A stretch of 64,000 bases of DNA from Streptomyces sp. SCUT-3 (GTDB lineage Bacteria > Actinomycetota > Actinomycetes > Streptomycetales > Streptomycetaceae), in the NCBI RefSeq assembly GCF_014083985.1, contig NZ_CP046907.1, forward strand, positions 62,001-126,000, written 5' to 3'. The position numbers were made by a program, and so were the translations under genes. Shown here piece after piece: positions 7,585-17,190 of the stretch (the stretch's first letter is position 1; every line of letters begins with the position of its first letter). The notes under the pieces are model-generated. The model did no database searches and had not been told where the DNA came from. It saw nothing but the letters and a program-made list of their open reading frames with translations.

Positions 7585-9168
7585 TCACGCCGGGCCGGAC
7601 CACCTGGCCAGCGCGGCCGGCAGGCCGTCCGGGCCCCCGTCCGGGGAGGCCCAGCAGACGTGGCCGTCGGGGCGGACGAGGAGGGCCGCCGCGTCCAGTC
7701 CGTCGGCGTCGGCGGAGCGCACGCGGAGGACCCGTCCCGCCCACGGCCCGGCGGCCCCGCCGAGGCCCGGCGCGGCGCCGGGCAGTTCCAGCAGCAGGCC
7801 GCGGCCGTCGGCCAGCAGTCCGTACAGGCCGGTCTGCCGCCCGTCCACGACCAGGTCGGCGTCGGGGACGCGGGCGCCCAGCAGCGGGTGCGGCGGGGAG
7901 CCCGGCACGGGGTAGGAGACGTCCAGCCCGGTGACCGCGCCGGTGGCGTACCGGTTGCCCCCGGGCAGCCGCAGCAGGTCGGTGACGATCTCCCGCAGGG
8001 CGACGGCGTCGTCGTCCCGGGCCGCCATCAGCAGCCCCTGGGCCCTGGTGTTCCGCAGGACGCGGGCCCCGACCGGGTGCCGTTCGGCGTGGTAGCTGTC
8101 CAGCAGGTCGTCCCCGGCCCCGTACCGCACGGCGGCGGCCAGTTTCCAGCCGAGGTTGAAGGCGTCCTGCATGCCCAGGTTGAGGCCCTGGCCGCCGGTG
8201 GGCAGGTGGATGTGGGCGGCGTCGCCGGCCAGGAAGACCCGGCCGGTGCGGTAGCGCTCGGCCTGCCGGGAGGCGTCGGTGAAGCGGGTGGCGTGGCGCA
8301 CCTCCTTCAGCCCCGCCCGGCCGCCGTAGAGCGCCGCCAGGGCTTCGGCCACCTCGGCCGCGGTGACCGGTTCGGCCCGGTCGCGCCGCTGCTGCGCGGG
8401 CCCGGAGAACATGAAGCGGTGCACCCCTTCCCGCAGTGGCAGCATCATCCCGCGCACTCCCCCGCCGGCGCGGGCGGCCTCGCCGACGGAGCGCAGGGCG
8501 CCGGGGCGGGCCTCGGACGGGACCTCGGACAGCACGACGTCCGCCGCGACCATGACCACCGTGCCGGGGGTGCCGGGGGTGCCGGGGAAGGGAGTGCCCA
8601 GCAGCTTGCGGACGGTGCTGCGGCCCCCGTCGCAGCCGACCAGCCAGCGGCTGCGGACGGTGCCCGGGCGTCCGCCGGGGCCGGTGAAGGCGGCGGTGAC
8701 GCCCTCGGCGTCCTGGGCCAGGCCGGTCAGCGCGCAGCCGCGCCGCACCGGGACCCCGTTCCCGGCCGGCCCGTCCTCCAGGAACTCCTCCAGGAACTCC
8801 TCGACGCGGTTCTGGCCGACGGGAACGGCGCCGGGGTGCCGGGTCCTCCATGGGGTGGTGTCCAGCGGCACCGGCAGCCCGGCGAAGTGGAGGGCGGTCG
8901 GGAAGAGGCCCTCGTCGCGGGCGAGCAGGGGCACGAGCAGACCGCGCATCCGCAGGATCTCGGCGGTGCGCGGCTGGAGGCCCAGGGCCCTGGACTGCCC
9001 GTTGCGCCCGGTGCGCCGTTCGAGCACGGTGACCCGCACTCCGGCCAGGGCCAGTTCGGTGGCGAGCAGCAGCCCCGTCGGGCCTGCTCCCACCACGGTC
9101 ACGTCCGTGTCGGCCGTCGCGGTCCTCGCGGTCTTCGCAGTCGTACCCGCGGTCGCGCCGTCGCCCAT
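7585..9168 (-). CDS. FAD-dependent aromatic monooxygenase
   Basis: The 527-residue flavoprotein belongs to the class A hydroxylases (PgaE/RdmE-like polyketide and rifampin hydroxylases). It has the GxGxxG FAD motif (VVGAGPTGLLLATELA), a DG-type motif in WLVGCDGGRSTVRKLLG, and the FAD ribityl motif FLAGDAAHIHLPTGGQGLN. A C-terminal thioredoxin-like domain of this family follows. The ATG at 9168 is preferred because GGAGGAG lies 4-5 nt upstream; another ATG in frame lies 27 nt earlier. It is divergent from a TetR gene across a 30-bp inverted repeat, so it is likely induced by its substrate or a xenobiotic. Confidence 0.9.
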   Translation of the reverse strand: MGDGATAGTTAKTARTATADTDVTVVGAGPTGLLLATELALAGVRVTVLERRTGRNGQSRALGLQPRTAEILRMRGLLVPLLARDEGLFPTALHFAGLPVPLDTTPWRTRHPGAVPVGQNRVEEFLEEFLEDGPAGNGVPVRRGCALTGLAQDAEGVTAAFTGPGGRPGTVRSRWLVGCDGGRSTVRKLLGTPFPGTPGTPGTVVMVAADVVLSEVPSEARPGALRSVGEAARAGGGVRGMMLPLREGVHRFMFSGPAQQRRDRAEPVTAAEVAEALAALYGGRAGLKEVRHATRFTDASRQAERYRTGRVFLAGDAAHIHLPTGGQGLNLGMQDAFNLGWKLAAAVRYGAGDDLLDSYHAERHPVGARVLRNTRAQGLLMAARDDDAVALREIVTDLLRLPGGNRYATGAVTGLDVSYPVPGSPPHPLLGARVPDADLVVDGRQTGLYGLLADGRGLLLELPGAAPGLGGAAGPWAGRVLRVRSADADGLDAAALLVRPDGHVCWASPDGGPDGLPAALARWSGPA

Positions 9169-9202
9169 GTCTCCTCCTCGGTCGGGAGCAGCCATCCAAA
9201 CA

Positions 9203-9232
9203 TTTACCGAGTCAATAAAACAACCCGGTAAA
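9203..9232. promoter_or_regulatory. TetR-type operator between monooxygenase and TetR genes
   Basis: Two perfect 7-nt arms, TTTACCG (9203-9209) and CGGTAAA (9226-9232), are separated by 16 nt in an AT-rich island between divergent genes. The position fits binding of the adjacent TetR protein, repressing both promoters. Confidence 0.65.
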
Positions 9233-9257
9233 GAAATTTCTCCGGTTCATGCGCGGC

Positions 9258-9263
9258 TAGGAT
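9258..9263 (+). promoter_or_regulatory. Probable -10 box, leaderless TetR transcript
   Basis: TAGGAT is followed by 6 nt and then the ATG at 9270, with no ribosome site between. The inverted repeat at 9203-9232 lies just upstream, as expected for autoregulation. Confidence 0.5.
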
Positions 9264-9269
9264 CACCCC

Positions 9270-9935
9270 ATGGACACGGCCACCGACGCACGCGGCGGGA
9301 CGGGCGGACTGCGGGAGCGCAAGAGGCTGCGGACACGGCAGGCGATCTCCGACGCCGCGATCCGCCTCTTCCTCTCCGAAGGGTTCGAGACGGTGTCGGT
9401 GGCGCGCGTCGCGGACGCGGCGGAGGTCTCCAAGCCGACCCTGTTCAAGTACTTCCCCACCAAGGAGGACCTGGTCCTCCACCGCTTCGCCGACCACGAG
9501 GACGAGGCCGCGCGCACGGTGCGCGGCCGGCCCGCGGACGTCCCGCCGCTGGACGCCCTGCACCGCCACCTCCTCGGCGGGCTGGAGCGGCGCGACCCGA
9601 TCACCGGGCTGTCCGACCGGCCCGAGGCGGTGGAGCTCTCCCGCCTCCTGCTCGCGACCCCCTCCCTGGTCGCCCGCCTGGCCGACTACACCGCCCGCAC
9701 CGAGGCCCTGCTCGCCCACGCCCTGGCCGAGGCCGTCGGCGCCGGTCCCGACGACCTCGCCTGCCGCCTGGCGGCCCGTCAGATCGTCGGGACCCAGCAG
9801 CTCCTGGGCATGGACAACTGCCGGCGCGTCTCCTCCGGCATGCCCCTGGACGCGGCGCACCGGGAGGCGGTGGCGGACGCCGACCGGGCCTTCGCCCTCC
9901 TGCGGGACGGCCTCGGCGGCCTCCTCGGCCGGTAG
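9270..9935 (+). CDS. TetR family regulator
   Basis: The 221-residue protein has an N-terminal TetR DNA-binding domain (RQAISDAAIRLFLSEGFETV, VSKPTLFKYFPTKEDLVLHRF) within about residues 22-68 and a helical ligand domain after it. Length is normal. The ATG is the first start after the -10-like TAGGAT. It is divergent from the flavin monooxygenase and probably represses it and itself through the intergenic inverted repeat. The inducer is unknown. Confidence 0.92.
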   Translation: MDTATDARGGTGGLRERKRLRTRQAISDAAIRLFLSEGFETVSVARVADAAEVSKPTLFKYFPTKEDLVLHRFADHEDEAARTVRGRPADVPPLDALHRHLLGGLERRDPITGLSDRPEAVELSRLLLATPSLVARLADYTARTEALLAHALAEAVGAGPDDLACRLAARQIVGTQQLLGMDNCRRVSSGMPLDAAHREAVADADRAFALLRDGLGGLLGR

Positions 9936-10046
9936 GGCGGGCGAGTCGCGGCGGCAAACCGCAATGCAAAAAGGGCGGAACAGGCAGTTTTTCCGCGCTT
10001 TGCCGCCCCGGCCACGGATGCTCCGGCCGTGCTCACCACCGCCGAT

Positions 10047-10062
10047 TGAGTACTCGTACTCA
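10047..10062. promoter_or_regulatory. Inverted repeat upstream of the ketosynthase operon
   Basis: TGAGTAC-TC-GTACTCA is a perfect 7+7 inverted repeat with a 2-nt spacer, 35 bp before the ATG of the first operon gene. It is a plausible operator for a dimeric regulator. No regulator gene lies inside the operon; the TetR gene at 9270 is nearest, but its own operator has a different sequence. Confidence 0.5.
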
Positions 10063-10096
10063 GGCCCGCCGCCCGCCCCGCGGCGATGCTTTGGCC

Positions 10097-11125
10097 ATGC
10101 AGAGTCAGAGCGCAGACGTGGGCGGGCCCCCGAGGGTCGGCATCACCGCCGTCGGCTCCTGCCTTCCGGAACGGGTCCTGACCTCCCGCCGGTTGCAGGA
10201 GGAGGTGGCCGGGGCCAGCGGACTGCCCCTGCCCCCGGGGCTGTTCGAGAGGGCCACCGGGATCCGCACCCGCCGCGTGGCCGCGGAGGACGAGTACGCC
10301 TCGACCCTGGCGGTGGGGGCCGCCCGCACCGCGCTGGACCGCGCCGGGCTCGACCCGCTCGACGTGGACCTGCTGGTGTTCGCCTCGGCCACCCGCGACG
10401 TGGCCGAACCGGCCACCGCGCACATCGTGCAGGCCGAACTGGGCGGCCGGGCGCACGCGCTGGACGTGACCAACGCCTGCAACAGCTTCGTCAACGGCAT
10501 CGACACCGCGCGGGCGATGATCCTGGCCGGCCGCGCCCGCCGGGCGCTGGTGGTAACCGGGGAGACGCCCGGCCGGGCGGTGCGCCGCAACCCCGGCAGC
10601 CTCGCGCAGCTCCGCGACGGGTTCGCGGGCTACACCTTCGGCGACGCGGGCGCGGCCGTCGTCCTCGAGCCCGTGGGCCGCGGCGGCATCCTCGACGTGG
10701 ACGCCGAGACGCACTCCGAGCACTGGCGGGTCGGCGGGATCCCCGGCGGCGGTTCGCGCCACCCGCGCGGGGACGAGCACACCTACTTCCACGGCGACGG
10801 CGGCGAACTGCGGGCGGTCTTCGAGAAGGTGGGCACCTCGGTGCTGGACCGGGTCCGGCACCGCACCGGCCTGGACTGGGGCGACTTCCGGCACGTCCTC
10901 GTCCACCAGGTCACGGTGCCCTACCTGGAGCGGTTCGCGGAGGTCACCGGTGTTCCCGAGGACCGGCTGGTGGTCACCGTCGCGGAGCTGGGCAACGTCG
11001 CCAGCGCCTCCCTGGGGGTGCAGCTGGACCGCGTGCACGCCGGGCTGCGCCCCGGCGACCGGGTGCTGTTCGTCGGCCTCGGCGGCGGGGTCAGCATCAT
11101 GACGATGGTCTGGGAGCAGGCGTGA
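10097..11125 (+). CDS. 3-oxoacyl-ACP synthase III family protein (FabH/OleA-like)
   Basis: The 342-residue thiolase-fold condensing enzyme has the catalytic triad of the KAS III family: Cys128 in DVTNACNSFVNG, His270 in VHQVTVPYL and Asn300 in ELGNVASAS. The chain FGDAGAAVVLEP precedes the substrate-binding half. Members either start fatty acid synthesis or, like OleA, join two acyl chains head to head. The downstream AMP ligase and epimerase/dehydrogenase favour the OleA-like reading, by inference. It is the first gene of a five-gene operon and its GTGA end overlaps the next start. Confidence 0.88.
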   Translation: MQSQSADVGGPPRVGITAVGSCLPERVLTSRRLQEEVAGASGLPLPPGLFERATGIRTRRVAAEDEYASTLAVGAARTALDRAGLDPLDVDLLVFASATRDVAEPATAHIVQAELGGRAHALDVTNACNSFVNGIDTARAMILAGRARRALVVTGETPGRAVRRNPGSLAQLRDGFAGYTFGDAGAAVVLEPVGRGGILDVDAETHSEHWRVGGIPGGGSRHPRGDEHTYFHGDGGELRAVFEKVGTSVLDRVRHRTGLDWGDFRHVLVHQVTVPYLERFAEVTGVPEDRLVVTVAELGNVASASLGVQLDRVHAGLRPGDRVLFVGLGGGVSIMTMVWEQA

Positions 11126-11862
11126 GCGCGCTGTGGGTGGTGGTGCCCGCCCACCAGGAGGAGCAGCGCATCGGCGCCACGCTGGAGGCGCTGGCCGCCC
11201 AGACCGACCGGGACTTCGCCCTGGTGGTCGTGGACAACGCCTCCACCGACGGCACCGCCGGCATCGCGCGGGAGTTCGCCCGCACCGCGCCGTTCCCGGT
11301 GCACGTCGTCGGCGAGCCCGACAAGGGCGTGGGCTGCGCCGTCGACACCGGGTTCCGGTACGCGATCGGGCGCGGTGCCGTGCTGCTCGCCCGCACCGAC
11401 GCCGACTGCCTGCCGCACCCCGGGTGGACGGCCGCCGCCCGGGCCGCGCTGGAGGCGGGTGCCGCAATGGTGTGCGGGCGCATCGACGCCCGCCGCGACG
11501 AGCACGGGCCGCTGGGCAGGGCCGCGTTCCGGGCCCTGGTCGCCGCCGCCGCGCTCTTCGGCCGGCTGCGGCCCGCCCACCGGCGCCGGCACGGCTACCT
11601 GGCGCCGTACCGGATGCACGCGGGCAACAACATGGCGATCACCGCCCGGCTGTACCTGGACGTCGGCGGCATGCCGCGCCGCCCCTCCCCCACCGACCGG
11701 GCGTTCCTGAACCGGGTGCGCCGCCGCACCGCCTCCATAACCCGCTCCAGGGCGATGGTCGTGGAGAACTCCACGCGCCGCCTGCGCGCCTACGGGATCG
11801 CCGGAACCGCCCGCTGGTACCTCGACGGGGGCAGTGGCCGCCACGGGGAGGACCCGCGCTGA
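11122..11862 (+). CDS. Family 2 glycosyltransferase
   Basis: The 246-residue protein starts WVVVPAHQEEQRIGATLEAL, then LVVVDNASTDGTAGIA, the nucleotide-sugar-binding start of GT2 enzymes, with the metal-binding DAD in ARTDADCLPH. No clear membrane anchor is seen, though a short hydrophobic stretch (FRALVAAAALFG) lies mid-protein. The GTG start overlaps the previous stop and the stop overlaps the following ATG. In this operon it may glycosylate the long-chain product or a precursor. The acceptor is unknown. Confidence 0.88.
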   Translation: MSALWVVVPAHQEEQRIGATLEALAAQTDRDFALVVVDNASTDGTAGIAREFARTAPFPVHVVGEPDKGVGCAVDTGFRYAIGRGAVLLARTDADCLPHPGWTAAARAALEAGAAMVCGRIDARRDEHGPLGRAAFRALVAAAALFGRLRPAHRRRHGYLAPYRMHAGNNMAITARLYLDVGGMPRRPSPTDRAFLNRVRRRTASITRSRAMVVENSTRRLRAYGIAGTARWYLDGGSGRHGEDPR

Positions 11863-13342
11863 TGCTCGCCTCCCTCGCACACACCCTCCGCAGGAACGCC
11901 CACCGGCCCGCCGTCCTGGGCACGACCCGCACCGGGGCCGTGCGGACCGCGGCCACCTGCGGCGAACTGGCCGACCTCGCCGACACCTGCGCCGCCGCCC
12001 TGCACGCGCGGGGCGTCGAACGCGGCGGCACGGTCGCGGTGGCGGTGCGGCCCGGGCCGCGCGCCCTCGCCGTGATGCTCGCCGTGCACCGCCTCGGGCT
12101 GCGGGCCGCGGTCCTGGACCCGGGGGCGGGCCCCGACGTGCTGCGGGCCCGGCTCGCCCTCGCCCGCCCCGACGTGGTGCTCGCCGACGCCGCCGCGCAG
12201 GCCGTCGCAGGGTGGGCGCGGCCGCTGGCCCGCCGCGCCCGGCTCGCCCTCCCGGACCTGTCCGGTCTGGGGCCGGTGGCCACGGTCGGCCCCGGCTGCC
12301 CGGCTGCGCCCCCTCGCTGGAGGGGTCCGCCCGGGCGGCCGTCCTGCCCCCGCCGGTGGACGGGGACGGGGACGCCGTCATCGTGTTCACCTCCGGCACC
12401 ACGTCGCGGCCCCGCGCCGTGGTGCACTCCCGGTCCGGGCTCGACGCCGGCATGGCGCAGGTCGCCGGCCTGGTGCGGCCCGCGGCCGGGGAGCCGGTGC
12501 TCGGCGGCACTTTCTTCGTGCTCGTCCCCTCCCTGGCGAGCGGCGCCCCGGTCGCACTGCCCGCCCGGTCGCCCCGCGTCCTGGCCCGGCAGCTGCGGCG
12601 GCTGCGGCCGCAGGCCGCCTACCTGACCCCGCCCCAGCTGCGGGCCGCACTGGCGGCCGGCGCCGGGTTCACCGGGCGGGTGTGGACCGGTTCCGCCCCG
12701 GCGAGCGCCGACCTGCTGACCCGCGTCAAGGCCGCCGGGGCCGACGAGGCGTGGGGGGTGTACGCGCTCACCGAACTGTTCCCCGCGGCCGCCGTCGAAC
12801 AGGCGGAGAAGGCCGCGTTCACCGGGGACGGGGACCTGGTCGGGGAACCGCTGCCCGGCGTCGGGATGAAGTCCGGACCGGCCGGGGAGCTGATGCTGTC
12901 CGGGCCGGCCGCCCGGCACCGCTACCTCGGCGAGGAGCCCGACCCCTGGGTGCGCACGGGCGACCGGGCGCGTCCGGACGGCGGCAGGATCGTGCTCGAG
13001 GGCCGCTGCAAGGACATGGTGCTGCGCGGCGCGGAGAACATCTACCCGGGCCTGTACGAGCCCGCCCTGCACGTGCCCGGCGTCGAACTCGCCCTGCTCG
13101 TCGGGGTGCCGGTCGGTGACGGCGACGAACGCCTGGTCGCCGTGGTGCAGCCCGCCCCGGGCGCCGACCGCGCCCGGGTGCGCGCCGCCCTGGCCGGCCC
13201 GCTGGCCCGGATGGGCACCGCCCGCCCGGACGCGCTGCTGCTGGCCGACGTCCCGCTGGCCGGCCGTTCCCGCAAGCCCGACCGCGCGGCCGCCGCCCGG
13301 CTGGCGGCGGCCCGGCTGGGCGCGCCCGGGAGAACCCGGTGA
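11862..13342 (+). CDS. Class I adenylate-forming (AMP) ligase, OleC-like position, one-base frameshift
   Basis: Repaired, the protein is 493 residues. It carries VFTSGTTSRPRAVVHS (ATP loop), YALTELFP, VRTGDRARPDGGRIVLEG with KDMVLRGAENIYP (hinge and A8), and the catalytic lysine in GRSRKPDR near the end. Residues 1-149 are in one frame and the rest in another. The switch is at the C5 run 12309-12313; a sixth C restores the frame through to the stop. Enzymes of this kind activate fatty acids or, as in OleC, act on beta-hydroxy acids. Ends overlap both neighbours. Confidence 0.85.
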
Positions 13343-14505
13343 GCGCGGCCCGCCGGCGCGACCGCCGGGTCTACCTGAGCGCCCACCCGGTGCTGTTCGC
13401 CCTGCTGGCCGCGGCACGCCGGCGCCCCGCGGTGCGGCTGGGCGGGACCGTGCTCGTGCACGGGAGCGAGGCGTACCGGCAGGTGCTGACCCGGGTCCCG
13501 CTGGACCGCTCCGCGGCGGGCACCACCGGCGGCGCCGGCCGGCAGCTGTCCGGCGGAGGGGTGCTGTTCGACCAGGACGGCGGAGGCCACCGCGACTCCC
13601 GCCGGGCCGTGTCCGACGGCCTCGGCGCGGCCGGGGTGGAGCGGCTGCGCCCGGTGTGGCGCGAAGTCCTCGGCCGCCGGCTCGCCCCGCTGGCCGCCGG
13701 CCGCACCGTCGACCTCGTCCCGGTGGCCCGGGAACTGGCCGGGGCCACGGTCTGCGCGCTGCTGGGGACGGACGCGGACCCGTCGGCCGTCGCCGGCGCG
13801 GCCGCGGACGCGGCGGCCGCCGCCGTGCGCGACCACCTGCCCGGGCCGCGCCGCCCCGGGACGGCCCGGGCCGCCGCGCAGGCCGCGGCCCGGCTGACGT
13901 CCCTCCTCGGCCCGGTCGGCGACGGCCGCGACGGAGACTGCGGGGAGGGCGGGGACGGGGACGGGGAGGGCGGTGCGGGACTGCGGGCGATGCTCGCCGT
14001 AGCCGCGGTCAGTACCACCGCCGCCGCCCTGCCCCGTGCGGCCGCGTGGTGCGCCGACGCCGGCTGGTGGGGCCCGGCCGCCGACGACCGGCTGCGCCCG
14101 GCCCTGGTGTCCGAGCTGCTGAGGGTCACCGCCCCGTCCCCGCTGCTCCCCCGGGTCGCCGCGGCCGGTGCCGAGGCGGGCGGCTGCCCGGTGCGGGCCG
14201 GGGACCGGCTGCTGCTGGTCGCGCGGCACGCCGCGCTCGCGCACAGCCGCGGGCCCGACCCGTACCGTCCGGCCCCTCCCGCCGTCGCACAGCTGGTGTT
14301 CGGGGCCGGCCCGCACGCCTGCCCCGGCGCCCGCCTGGCCCGGGCCCAGCTCGACGACACCCTGGCCGCACTGGCCCCGCACCGGCCGTCCGTGGTGCGC
14401 GCGCGGGCGGACCGCGCCGCCGCGCTGCCGGGCTGGCGCTCCCTGACCGTCCGGGCGGGCACCGTCCGGGCGGGCACCGCCCGCGCACCCCTGGAGGACC
14501 GTTGA
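13339..14505 (+). CDS. Cytochrome P450
   Basis: The 388-residue protein has the haem-binding loop FGAGPHACPGARLA with Cys328 as the thiolate ligand and an ExxR motif at 259-262 (ELLR). The oxygen-activating I-helix normally reads AGxE/DTT. Here the corresponding segment is AAVSTTAAA (222-230), keeping the threonines but lacking the glycine and the acidic residue, which is unusual for a hydroxylase. A Gly/Asp-rich insert lies at about 191-212. It needs ferredoxin partners encoded elsewhere. GTGA overlap with the ligase and TTGA overlap with the next gene show cotranslation. Confidence 0.9.
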   Translation: MSAARRRDRRVYLSAHPVLFALLAAARRRPAVRLGGTVLVHGSEAYRQVLTRVPLDRSAAGTTGGAGRQLSGGGVLFDQDGGGHRDSRRAVSDGLGAAGVERLRPVWREVLGRRLAPLAAGRTVDLVPVARELAGATVCALLGTDADPSAVAGAAADAAAAAVRDHLPGPRRPGTARAAAQAAARLTSLLGPVGDGRDGDCGEGGDGDGEGGAGLRAMLAVAAVSTTAAALPRAAAWCADAGWWGPAADDRLRPALVSELLRVTAPSPLLPRVAAAGAEAGGCPVRAGDRLLLVARHAALAHSRGPDPYRPAPPAVAQLVFGAGPHACPGARLARAQLDDTLAALAPHRPSVVRARADRAAALPGWRSLTVRAGTVRAGTARAPLEDR

Positions 14506-15419
14506 TCCGGATCGCCGTGACCGGGGCCGGCGGCTTCTGCGGCTCCCACGTCGCCACTGCCGCGGCGGCCTCGGGCGCCGACGTGGTGTGCGTGGGACGC
14601 AGACCGGGCCCGGTGGGGCGGCACGTGCCCTGGGAGGCCTCGGCCGACGTCCCCGACCTGGGAGGCGCCGACGTCGTCGTGCACTGCGCGGCCGCCGTCG
14701 GCGACCCCGTACCGGGCTCGCCGGCCGAGGCGTCGATGCGCGCGGTCAACGTCGACGGCACGGCACGGCTGCTGCGGGCCGCCGCCGGACGCCCGGTGGT
14801 GTGGGTGAGCAGCGCGAGCGTCTACGCCCCGGGGCCGAAAGGCGGACGGGTCCGCGAGGACCACCCGGTCGGCGGGCACCTGAACGCGTACGGCCGCACC
14901 AAGGCGGAGGGCGAGGCCCTGGCCCTCGCGGCGGGCGCGGTGGTGCTCAGGCCCCGTGCCGTGTACGGCACCGGCGACCCGCACCTGGTGCCCCGGCTCC
15001 TCGCCGGGGTCCGGGCGGGCCTGCTCCTGCTGCCCGGACCCGACACGGAGCTGAGCCTGACGGCCGTGGAGAACCTCGCCTACGCCTGCCTGGCCGCCGC
15101 CGGCTGGCCGCCGGGCGCCTACAACATCGCCGACCCGGCCCCCTACCGGCGCGACGATGCCGTGCGCGCCGTGCTGCACGCCCACGGCGTGCGGGCGCGG
15201 ATCCGGCACCTGCCGGTGCCGGTGGCGGTGGCCGCGGCGACGGCGGCGCAGGCGCTGACGCGCCTGCGCCCGCACTCCGGGCCCGCACTCACCCGCTACG
15301 CCGTCGACCAGCTCGCCCACGGCGTCGTCCTGGACGTCGGAAAGGCCGAGAGCCGGGGCTGGACGGCGCGCCGCGGCCTGGCCGACCACCTCTCCGCGGT
15401 GCGGAATTCCGGCACCTGA
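14502..15419 (+). CDS. NAD(P)-dependent epimerase/dehydratase (extended SDR, OleD-like position)
   Basis: The 305-residue protein begins IRIAVTGAGGFCGSHVA, the TGxxGxxG cofactor loop of extended SDRs. It keeps the catalytic serine (WVSSASVYAPG) and YGRTK (YxxxK). The TTG start is supported by GGAGGA 5 nt upstream and the TTGA overlap with the P450 stop. Extended SDRs include sugar epimerases and 3-beta-HSD-like enzymes such as OleD, which reduces the beta-keto acid made by OleA. The presence of a KAS III and an AMP ligase in the same operon favours the latter, but a sugar-modifying role beside the glycosyltransferase is possible. Confidence 0.85.
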   Translation: MIRIAVTGAGGFCGSHVATAAAASGADVVCVGRRPGPVGRHVPWEASADVPDLGGADVVVHCAAAVGDPVPGSPAEASMRAVNVDGTARLLRAAAGRPVVWVSSASVYAPGPKGGRVREDHPVGGHLNAYGRTKAEGEALALAAGAVVLRPRAVYGTGDPHLVPRLLAGVRAGLLLLPGPDTELSLTAVENLAYACLAAAGWPPGAYNIADPAPYRRDDAVRAVLHAHGVRARIRHLPVPVAVAAATAAQALTRLRPHSGPALTRYAVDQLAHGVVLDVGKAESRGWTARRGLADHLSAVRNSGT

Positions 15420-15534
15420 CCCGGCCCCGCCCGGCGCGGACCCCGCCCCGCCGGCCCGTGGGCAGGGACCCCGGCGGCGGTCCTCCGGCCGGACAGGAGA
15501 ACCACGTGCCGCGGCCGGAGGATGGGAGGAGTTG

Positions 15535-15583
15535 CGCCGGGCACGTCGGACGTGCCGGGCACGTCGGGCGTGCCGGGAGGACA
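15535..15583. repeat. Short tandem repeat before the MFS gene
   Basis: GGGCACGTCGG(A/G)CGTGCCG-type units are repeated about 2.5 times in the 190-bp gap before the MFS start. Function unknown. Confidence 0.5.
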
Positions 15584-15608
15584 CCTCGTCCGGGAGGAGG
15601 GCCGGGCC

Positions 15609-16922
15609 GTGGGAACGGTGGGACCCCCGCACGGCGGCACGCCGGTCTCCGGGAACACCGCCGCCGTCCCGCCGCCCCGGATGGGGCCGTGGCGGTTCGT
15701 GCTGGCCTTCGGAACCGTGAGCCTGCTCGCGGACTTCGTCTACGAGGGCGCCCGCTCCGTCACCGGTCCGCTCCTGGCCCGGCTGGGCGCGAGCGCCGCC
15801 GTGGTCGGGGCTGTCACCGGGGCCGGTGAGGCCGCGGCCCTAGTGCTGCGGCTGGCCTCCGGGCCCCTGGCCGACCGCACCCGCCGCTTCTGGGCCTGGA
15901 CCGTCGCCGGATACGCGCTGTCCGTACTGACCGTGCCCTTCCTCGGCCTGGTCTCCACCCTGTGGGCGGCCGGCGCCCTGGTACTGGCCGAGCGGGTGGG
16001 CAAGGCGGTCCGCTCCCCGGCCAAGGACACCCTGCTCTCCCACGCCACCGCCGCCACCGGCCGCGGCCGCGGGTTCGGCGTCCACGAGGCGATGGACCAG
16101 ATCGGTGCCCTGATCGGCCCCCTGGTGGTGGCCGCGGTGCTCGCCGCCGGCGGCGACGACTACGGCCCGGCGCTGGGCGTGCTGGCCGCTCCGGGAGTTC
16201 TGGTCCTGGGCCTGCTGGCGTGGCTGCGGTGGCGGGTTCCGGACCCCGCCTCCTACGAGACCGCCCCGGCCCCTGCCCCTGCCGGGGCTCGGGCCGGGGC
16301 CCCCGGGGCCGAGGCCTCCGAGGCCCCGGCCGGCGGCGCGCCCGACGCCGCGGCGGCCCGTACCGGCCCCCTGCCGCGGGCCTTCTGGGTCTTCGCCGCC
16401 TTCACCGCCATGACGACGGCGGGCTTCGCCACCTTCGGCGTGCTCTCGTTCCACCTGGTCGAACGCGATCTGCTGTCTCCCGCCGCGGTGCCCGTGGTGT
16501 ACGCCGCCGCGATGGGCGTCGACGCTCTCGCCGCCCTGGCCGTCGGCTGGGCCTACGACCGTCTCGGCCCCCGGGTGCTCGTGGTGCTGCCACTGCTGTC
16601 GGCCGCCGTGCCGGCCCTGGCCTTCTCCGACGCCCTCGTCCCGGCGGTGCTCGGCTCCCTGGCCTGGGGCGCGGCCACCGGCGTGCAGGAGTCCACCCTG
16701 CGGGCCACCGTCGCTGATCTGGTCCCCTCCGGCCGCCGGGCCACCGCCTACGGCCTGTTCGCCGCCGTCATGGGCGCCGCCGCCGCGGTCGGCGGGACCC
16801 TGGCCGGCGTCCTGTACGAGAGGTCCGTCCCCGCGCTGGTCACCGTCACCGCGTCCGTGCAGGCCGCGGCCCTCCTGCTGCTCGCCGTCCTGCTCCCCCG
16901 GCGCCGCACCGGACGGCGGTGA
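15609..16922 (+). CDS. MFS transporter
   Basis: About 437 residues with roughly 12 membrane segments. The first is FVLAFGTVSLLADFVYEGA, and loop 2-3 has the MFS motif GPLADRTRRFW. A central, probably cytoplasmic, Ala/Pro/Gly-rich loop separates the halves. The GTG at 15609 was chosen because GGGAGGAGGG lies 8-9 nt upstream; MGPWRF at 15681 is an alternative. It follows the ketosynthase operon in the same direction after 189 bp and could export its product, but the gap leaves cotranscription open. Confidence 0.85.
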   Translation: MGTVGPPHGGTPVSGNTAAVPPPRMGPWRFVLAFGTVSLLADFVYEGARSVTGPLLARLGASAAVVGAVTGAGEAAALVLRLASGPLADRTRRFWAWTVAGYALSVLTVPFLGLVSTLWAAGALVLAERVGKAVRSPAKDTLLSHATAATGRGRGFGVHEAMDQIGALIGPLVVAAVLAAGGDDYGPALGVLAAPGVLVLGLLAWLRWRVPDPASYETAPAPAPAGARAGAPGAEASEAPAGGAPDAAAARTGPLPRAFWVFAAFTAMTTAGFATFGVLSFHLVERDLLSPAAVPVVYAAAMGVDALAALAVGWAYDRLGPRVLVVLPLLSAAVPALAFSDALVPAVLGSLAWGAATGVQESTLRATVADLVPSGRRATAYGLFAAVMGAAAAVGGTLAGVLYERSVPALVTVTASVQAAALLLLAVLLPRRRTGRR

Positions 16923-17074: not shown

Positions 17075-17190
17075 CAGCAAGATATTCACGTCGAGACGGC
17101 GGTGCGCGGGAATCCGGCGGGGATCCGCGGCGTTCCCGTCACCGCGGCCGGGGGTGCCCCCTCGCGCACCGTCCCACGAGCGCGAGGGTC
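17075..17190 (+). promoter_or_regulatory. Cobalamin (B12) riboswitch-like leader
   Basis: The segment 17107-17145 reads GGGAATCCGGCGGGGATCCG, then CGGCGTTCCCGTCACCGC, close to the conserved B12-box core (GGGAANCCGGTGNNAATCCGG with CCCGCCACTGT). A hairpin with perfect 8-nt arms follows (CCCTCGCG 17159-17166, CGCGAGGG 17181-17188). Its right arm contains the GAGGG ribosome site for the ATG at 17197, so translational control by B12 is likely. Outer stems were not folded, so the 5' limit is approximate. Confidence 0.65.

Follow-up and report, generated by a model that had tools for sequence, protein, structure and literature searches.

Five overlapping genes of Streptomyces sp. SCUT-3 were found to form a real, coherent and widely conserved actinobacterial gene set, which on balance we favour as encoding an OleACD-type pathway that lacks OleB. 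Its product would be an oxidised glycolipid, and probably a beta-lactone carrying a sugar. The genes are located in the stretch of 64,000 nucleotides analysed here (the window), the start of which is 62 kb from the end of the single 6.08-Mb contig. They code in one direction for a ketosynthase (KS), a family 2 glycosyltransferase (GT2), an AMP-forming ligase, a cytochrome P450 and an extended SDR, in agreement with the five-gene operon recognised in a preliminary description of the region (10097-15419), and overlap successively by 4, 1, 4 and 4 nt (Table 1). The same description had each gene overlapping the next by 1-4 nt, which was true of these five genes but not of the MFS gene (15522-16922), separated from the SDR gene by a gap of 102 nt. 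As no MFS gene was present at any relative's locus, its proposed membership and function in exporting the product were unsupported. Along with the MFS gene, the neighbouring genes for a TetR regulator and a FAD monooxygenase were rejected as parts of the system because they were not conserved alongside the operon in relatives; only two TetR matches, weak and displaced, were found near the operon in relatives, both in Actinoplanes. The FAD monooxygenase gene (7585-9195, minus strand) is similar to rifampin monooxygenase models and divergent from the TetR gene (9270-9935, plus strand), and a tRNA-Gly(CCC) gene is located directly 3' of the MFS gene (17099-17176, plus strand).

Table 1. Positions in the window of the five operon genes and the upstream palindrome
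Feature	Position	Strand	Size and motifs	Basis or remark
OleA-type thiolase/ketosynthase (KS III fold)	10097-11125	+	342 aa	Pfam ACP_syn_III
Family 2 glycosyltransferase (GT2, GT-A)	11122-11862	+	246 aa, TDAD motif	Pfam Glycos_transf_2
AMP-forming ligase, OleC sister family, frameshifted	11862-13342	+		Pfam, trees, frame comparison
Cytochrome P450	13339-14505	+	388 aa	Heme Cys328, E259-x-x-R262, I-helix AVSTT
Extended SDR, OleD-related (putative 2-alkyl-3-oxoalkanoate reductase)	14502-15419	+	305 aa, TTG start	
Palindrome TGAGTACTCGTACTCA	10047-10062	none	16 bp	Conserved 5' of KS; likely operator

The route proposed here, with its individual catalytic steps, their order and the product, is predicted from what was observed of the genes present, their conservation and homology, and the residues of their active sites. 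The KS would join a pair of acyl chains, supplied as acyl-CoA (or acyl thioester), in a non-decarboxylative condensation to a 2-alkyl-3-keto acid; Cys128 would serve in acyl transfer, and the OleA-type base would be Glu104. The SDR would reduce the ketone of this acid, and the OleC-like ligase would then adenylate the resulting hydroxy acid, with ring closure to a beta-lactone as the most likely outcome. An alkyl chain may be oxidised by the P450, and GT2 may attach a sugar, or two sugars in those relatives retaining a second GT2, to yield the probable glycosylated beta-lactone. The sequence of condensation, reduction, lactonisation, hydroxylation and glycosylation suggested previously for the operon is retained as plausible. 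The conserved part of the operon contained no gene for the beta-lactone decarboxylase OleB. As covalent inhibitors of enzymes, beta-lactones such as lipstatin are of interest as drugs.

The search of named genomes with the KS identified 80 loci, in Streptomyces, Yinghuangia, Actinacidiphila, Actinoplanes/Paractinoplanes, Spirilliplanes and Phycicoccus. The order KS-GT2-ligase-P450-SDR was kept wherever the contig was long enough, including dozens of loci of Streptomyces, Actinoplanes and Phycicoccus, with few exceptions such as L044, in which KS and SDR alone were left. The retention of the gene order across about 65 loci excluded chance. At E <= 1e-60, the KS was present in 50 of the 200 sampled genomes of Streptomycetaceae, belonging to 6 of 17 genera, and in 22 of the 395 sampled genomes of the class Actinomycetes, yet the product of the pathway is not known.

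The gene inventory of the preliminary description had overlooked a component of the relatives. A second GT2 paralogue, approximately 50% identical to the first, was located between the ligase and P450 genes in 32 of the 65 complete loci (29 full and 3 partial), while it was missing from the window operon and from the locus of Actinoplanes atraurantiacus (L067). Its presence changed at least 12 times on the KS+GT2 tree, with at least five of the changes forced by well-supported branches, and L012 carried a scar in which the C-terminal tail of the second GT2 was fused to the ligase. The same gene content was also found in deeper relatives in other families, with KS identity of 46-58%. Among these, L206 had the six-gene order, L209-L213 and L216 showed the order KS-GT2-P450-ligase-SDR, and L214 contained KS-GT2-P450-ligase. 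Natural fusions were present as well: GT2 with the ligase in L207 and L208 of one genus (ORFs of 784-801 aa), where no clear OleD or P450 partner was seen, and GT2 with the P450 in L213 (10631-12589). The same content in differing orders and the natural fusions tied the five activities to one pathway, and were good evidence that the operon enzymes work together in it. The deep conservation, the alternative orders, the fusions and the on/off occurrence of the second GT2 provide direct handles on the product of this pathway.

The full Cys-His-Asn triad reported for the KS was confirmed (C128, H270 and N300). The enzyme also possessed E104, which was mapped via the structure of Xanthomonas OleA (PDB 3row) as the equivalent of OleA Glu117 (X. 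campestris numbering). This Glu was found in every aligned cluster KS, distant ones included, as well as in OleA and the LstA/NltA-type enzymes, and was absent from FabH-type KS; the cluster KS showed HQV(T/S) where the FabH type has HQAN. The reference OleA/C/D sets for the trees consisted of synteny-defined loci, the Nocardia-like two-KS locus L138 and the locus L201 of S. toxytricini, called lst-like by its gene content. In the KS tree, from the later version of which the partial KS of L001 was left out, the Glu-bearing enzymes (cluster KS, OleA, LstA and NltA) split from the FabH type at 100/100, while the cluster KS together with that of L139 formed their own clade (99/98) apart from canonical OleA. 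The KS was thus placed on the OleA side, as had been supposed, but as a sister lineage outside the canonical clade. The individual NCBIfam and PDB matches of the KS listed FabH-type enzymes first, as would be expected if it were a FabH-like decarboxylating enzyme extending an acyl chain with malonate and its Ole likeness were superficial; the OleA-specific Glu in all members, the HQV(T/S) motif and the 100/100 split make this hardly credible. The assignment of the KS to the OleA type was also in line with L139 of the same family (9178-13956), a full oleABCD operon composed of KS, alpha/beta-hydrolase, OleC and OleD genes. This operon was mixed, with a KS of the window's lineage and OleC and OleD of the canonical clades, and is of importance in showing a KS of this lineage located beside canonical-type OleC/OleD and alpha/beta-hydrolase genes.

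The cluster ligases formed a sister clade of OleC/NltC (100), and the two grouped at 99 against 32 other AMP/CoA ligases in trees lacking LstC of S. toxytricini, which the ligase profile did not pick up. The intact orthologue in L042 scored 53 bits with the OleC model, under the NCBIfam equivalog cut-off of 900. As the ligase belonged to the sister clade and scored under this cut-off, it is designated OleC-like, not OleC; the relationship to OleC proposed earlier was upheld, but not a position inside OleC. The SDR had GxxGFCG, Ser and YxxxK, which were conserved in relatives and agreed with its earlier description as an extended SDR. Its best NCBIfam matches were OleD models, at 79 and 77 bits, both short of the cut-off of 580. 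The clade with OleD/LstD/NltD had non-significant support of 47/52, a placement that was not rejected, and the SDR lay outside the canonical OleD clade. The supposed OleD likeness is accordingly kept in the form that the SDR is compatible with a relationship to OleD. Since the profile scores were well under the curated Ole cut-offs, the enzymes are described as OleA/C/D-type and not as equivalog members.

Closure of the beta-lactone is the weakest link of the proposal. The ligase might instead activate the 2-alkyl-3-hydroxy acid for transfer as a CoA thioester or ester with no ring formed, so that the product would be a mycolate-like glycolipid or a glycosyl ester. We consider this a credible, though less probable, course: intact cluster ligases scored highest with fatty-acid CoA ligase models, as in L042 (NF006754, 96 bits), and the GT2-ligase fusions of L207 and L208 had neither OleD nor P450 as a clear partner, while the grouping of the ligase with OleC/NltC, apart from the CoA ligases and other AMP ligases, argues against it. 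As a whole, the proposal of an OleACD-type pathway is supported by the Glu117 equivalent, the KS and ligase trees, the OleD matches of the SDR, L139, the absence of OleB and the reordered and fused relatives. Counting against it are the positions of KS, ligase and SDR outside the canonical Ole clades, the scores under the NCBIfam cut-offs, the better match of the intact ligase to generic fatty-acid CoA ligase models than to OleC, the 47/52 support of the SDR and the frameshift of the window ligase.

This frameshift had escaped the preliminary description of the ligase. The gene was not one open frame, with a switch between frames at about 12290-12312; the N-terminal AMP-binding part was read in the frame of 11862, which stops at 12626, and the C-terminal part in another frame carried the motifs TSGTT, TGD, GRxKDM and RKPDR. 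The core motifs attributed to the ligase were hence all present when both frames were combined, but not in any single frame. It is unlikely, in our view, that the frameshift is genuine and the operon dead or decaying in Streptomyces sp. SCUT-3. Such decay might be suspected because one frame change disrupted a gene that was a single intact frame at nearly all relatives' loci, and because L041, L044, L064 and L080 among the relatives also looked broken. The remaining four operon genes were, however, open and mostly 70-85% identical to those of Streptomyces relatives. Moreover, the same assembly had five or more further AMP-binding genes or domains split across frames, including, on contig 1, 2770853-2771913 (2770853/2771347; head of a 3241-aa frame), 2786941-2788013 (2786941/2787747) and 5463565-5464610 (5463565/5464227). 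On this frequency of frameshifts, judged from AMP-binding genes, sequencing error by indels was therefore the more likely cause of the ligase break.

The heme Cys and ExxR were present in 70/70 P450s. The acid of the I-helix was missing from the window enzyme (AVSTT) and was replaced throughout its clade, where most relatives had A-V/I-N-T-T and others carried T, S or A instead; GTET, in which the acid is kept, was limited to seven rearranged distant clusters. An acid-alcohol pair in the I-helix is usual in P450 monooxygenases, although not absolute, and its loss suggests altered P450 chemistry without proving it by itself. The AlphaFold model of the P450 (pLDDT 86) retrieved the catalytic P450s EryK, P450Blt and StaP first in a fold search. 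The best NCBIfam match was TIGR04515, the model of P450-derived glycosyltransferase activators, at 62 bits, and the P450 might be such an activator for GT2, like EryCII/DesVIII, instead of an oxygenase. The loss of the I-helix acid in the window's clade and the GT2-P450 fusion in L213 would fit this function. We regard it as highly improbable and do not favour it, as the score was far from the cut-off of 343, the heme Cys and ExxR were retained throughout, catalytic P450s were the nearest folds, and distant members retained GTET. In addition, known P450-derived activators pair with GT1-type enzymes. For GT2, the AlphaFold model (pLDDT 85) had GT-A sugar transferases as the closest solved folds, and TDADC was invariant among the relatives; an oxidising P450 and a sugar-transferring GT2 are the functions assumed in the proposed pathway.

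The palindrome TGAGTACNNGTACTCA is located 34 nt 5' of the KS start. Of 81 relatives, 60 had it 5' of their KS gene with agreement at 12 or more of the 14 positions, while shuffled controls reached 11 at most, so that the palindrome is likely the operator of the operon. The whole genome had only four sites at one mismatch or fewer, which are perhaps a small regulon of one regulator. An exact copy was located between pccB-like and maf-like genes (L203), and one-mismatch copies were seen near a gene for a small YiaA/B-like membrane protein (L204) and near a TetR gene (L205). BldM was rejected as the regulator as its published consensus, TCACcCgnncGgGTGA, differs, and literature searches on the palindrome and on the short gene 3' of pccB retrieved no regulator. 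More speculatively, and with low probability, the operons may make widespread doubly tailored OleACD glycolipids, with a P450 doing non-canonical chemistry without the catalytic acid, a second glycosyltransferase that comes and goes through repeated gene loss, and a dedicated conserved operator. In streptomycetes, such a compound would possibly serve in development or as a membrane lipid, not as an antibiotic.

The pathway had been introduced as possibly undescribed, which proved to be wrong, although it has no known product: the region oleA-GT-oleC-P450-oleD of A. atraurantiacus, which matches the window operon in all five genes and in their order, was published in 2020 together with the prediction of a hydroxylated, glycosylated beta-lactone (Smith et al., PMC7064751). 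The OleA of that organism, which is of the type found here, showed in vivo activity with p-nitrophenyl hexanoate, a point in favour of the proposed route; counting against it, no Claisen condensation was seen with acyl-CoAs, the protein being limited and precipitating (PMC7064751). A literature search, with most subscription journals, MIBiG and antiSMASH outside its reach, found no paper naming a product. The window differs from the A. atraurantiacus locus in the organism and in its MFS and TetR neighbours, and the orthologous KS was 69-70% identical (L067/L097). Beyond this prior art, the present analysis adds the placement in a third lineage, a second GT2 that was repeatedly lost or gained, relatives with rearranged or fused genes, the change of the P450 motif and the conserved operator; the passages of PMC7064751 considered here make no mention of the second GT2, the rearranged or fused relatives or the I-helix change.

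Among other known systems, the lipstatin (lst) and nocardiolactone (nlt) clusters share with the window operon an OleA-type KS with Glu, an AMP ligase, a 3beta-HSD/OleD-like SDR and the lack of OleB. Unlike the window operon with its single KS, they have two KS genes (LstA/LstB or NltA/NltB type) and neither GT2 nor P450, and the window KS fell in a separate clade outside LstA/NltA. The lst cluster additionally has an NRPS and a formyltransferase. S. toxytricini possesses both kinds, a window-type set (L075) in addition to its own lst-like genes (L201). With the olefin-forming oleABCD operons, represented by Xanthomonas OleA, the window operon shares the enzymes of condensation, reduction and adenylation, but it lacks OleB, has GT2 and P450 added, and its enzymes belong to sister clades.
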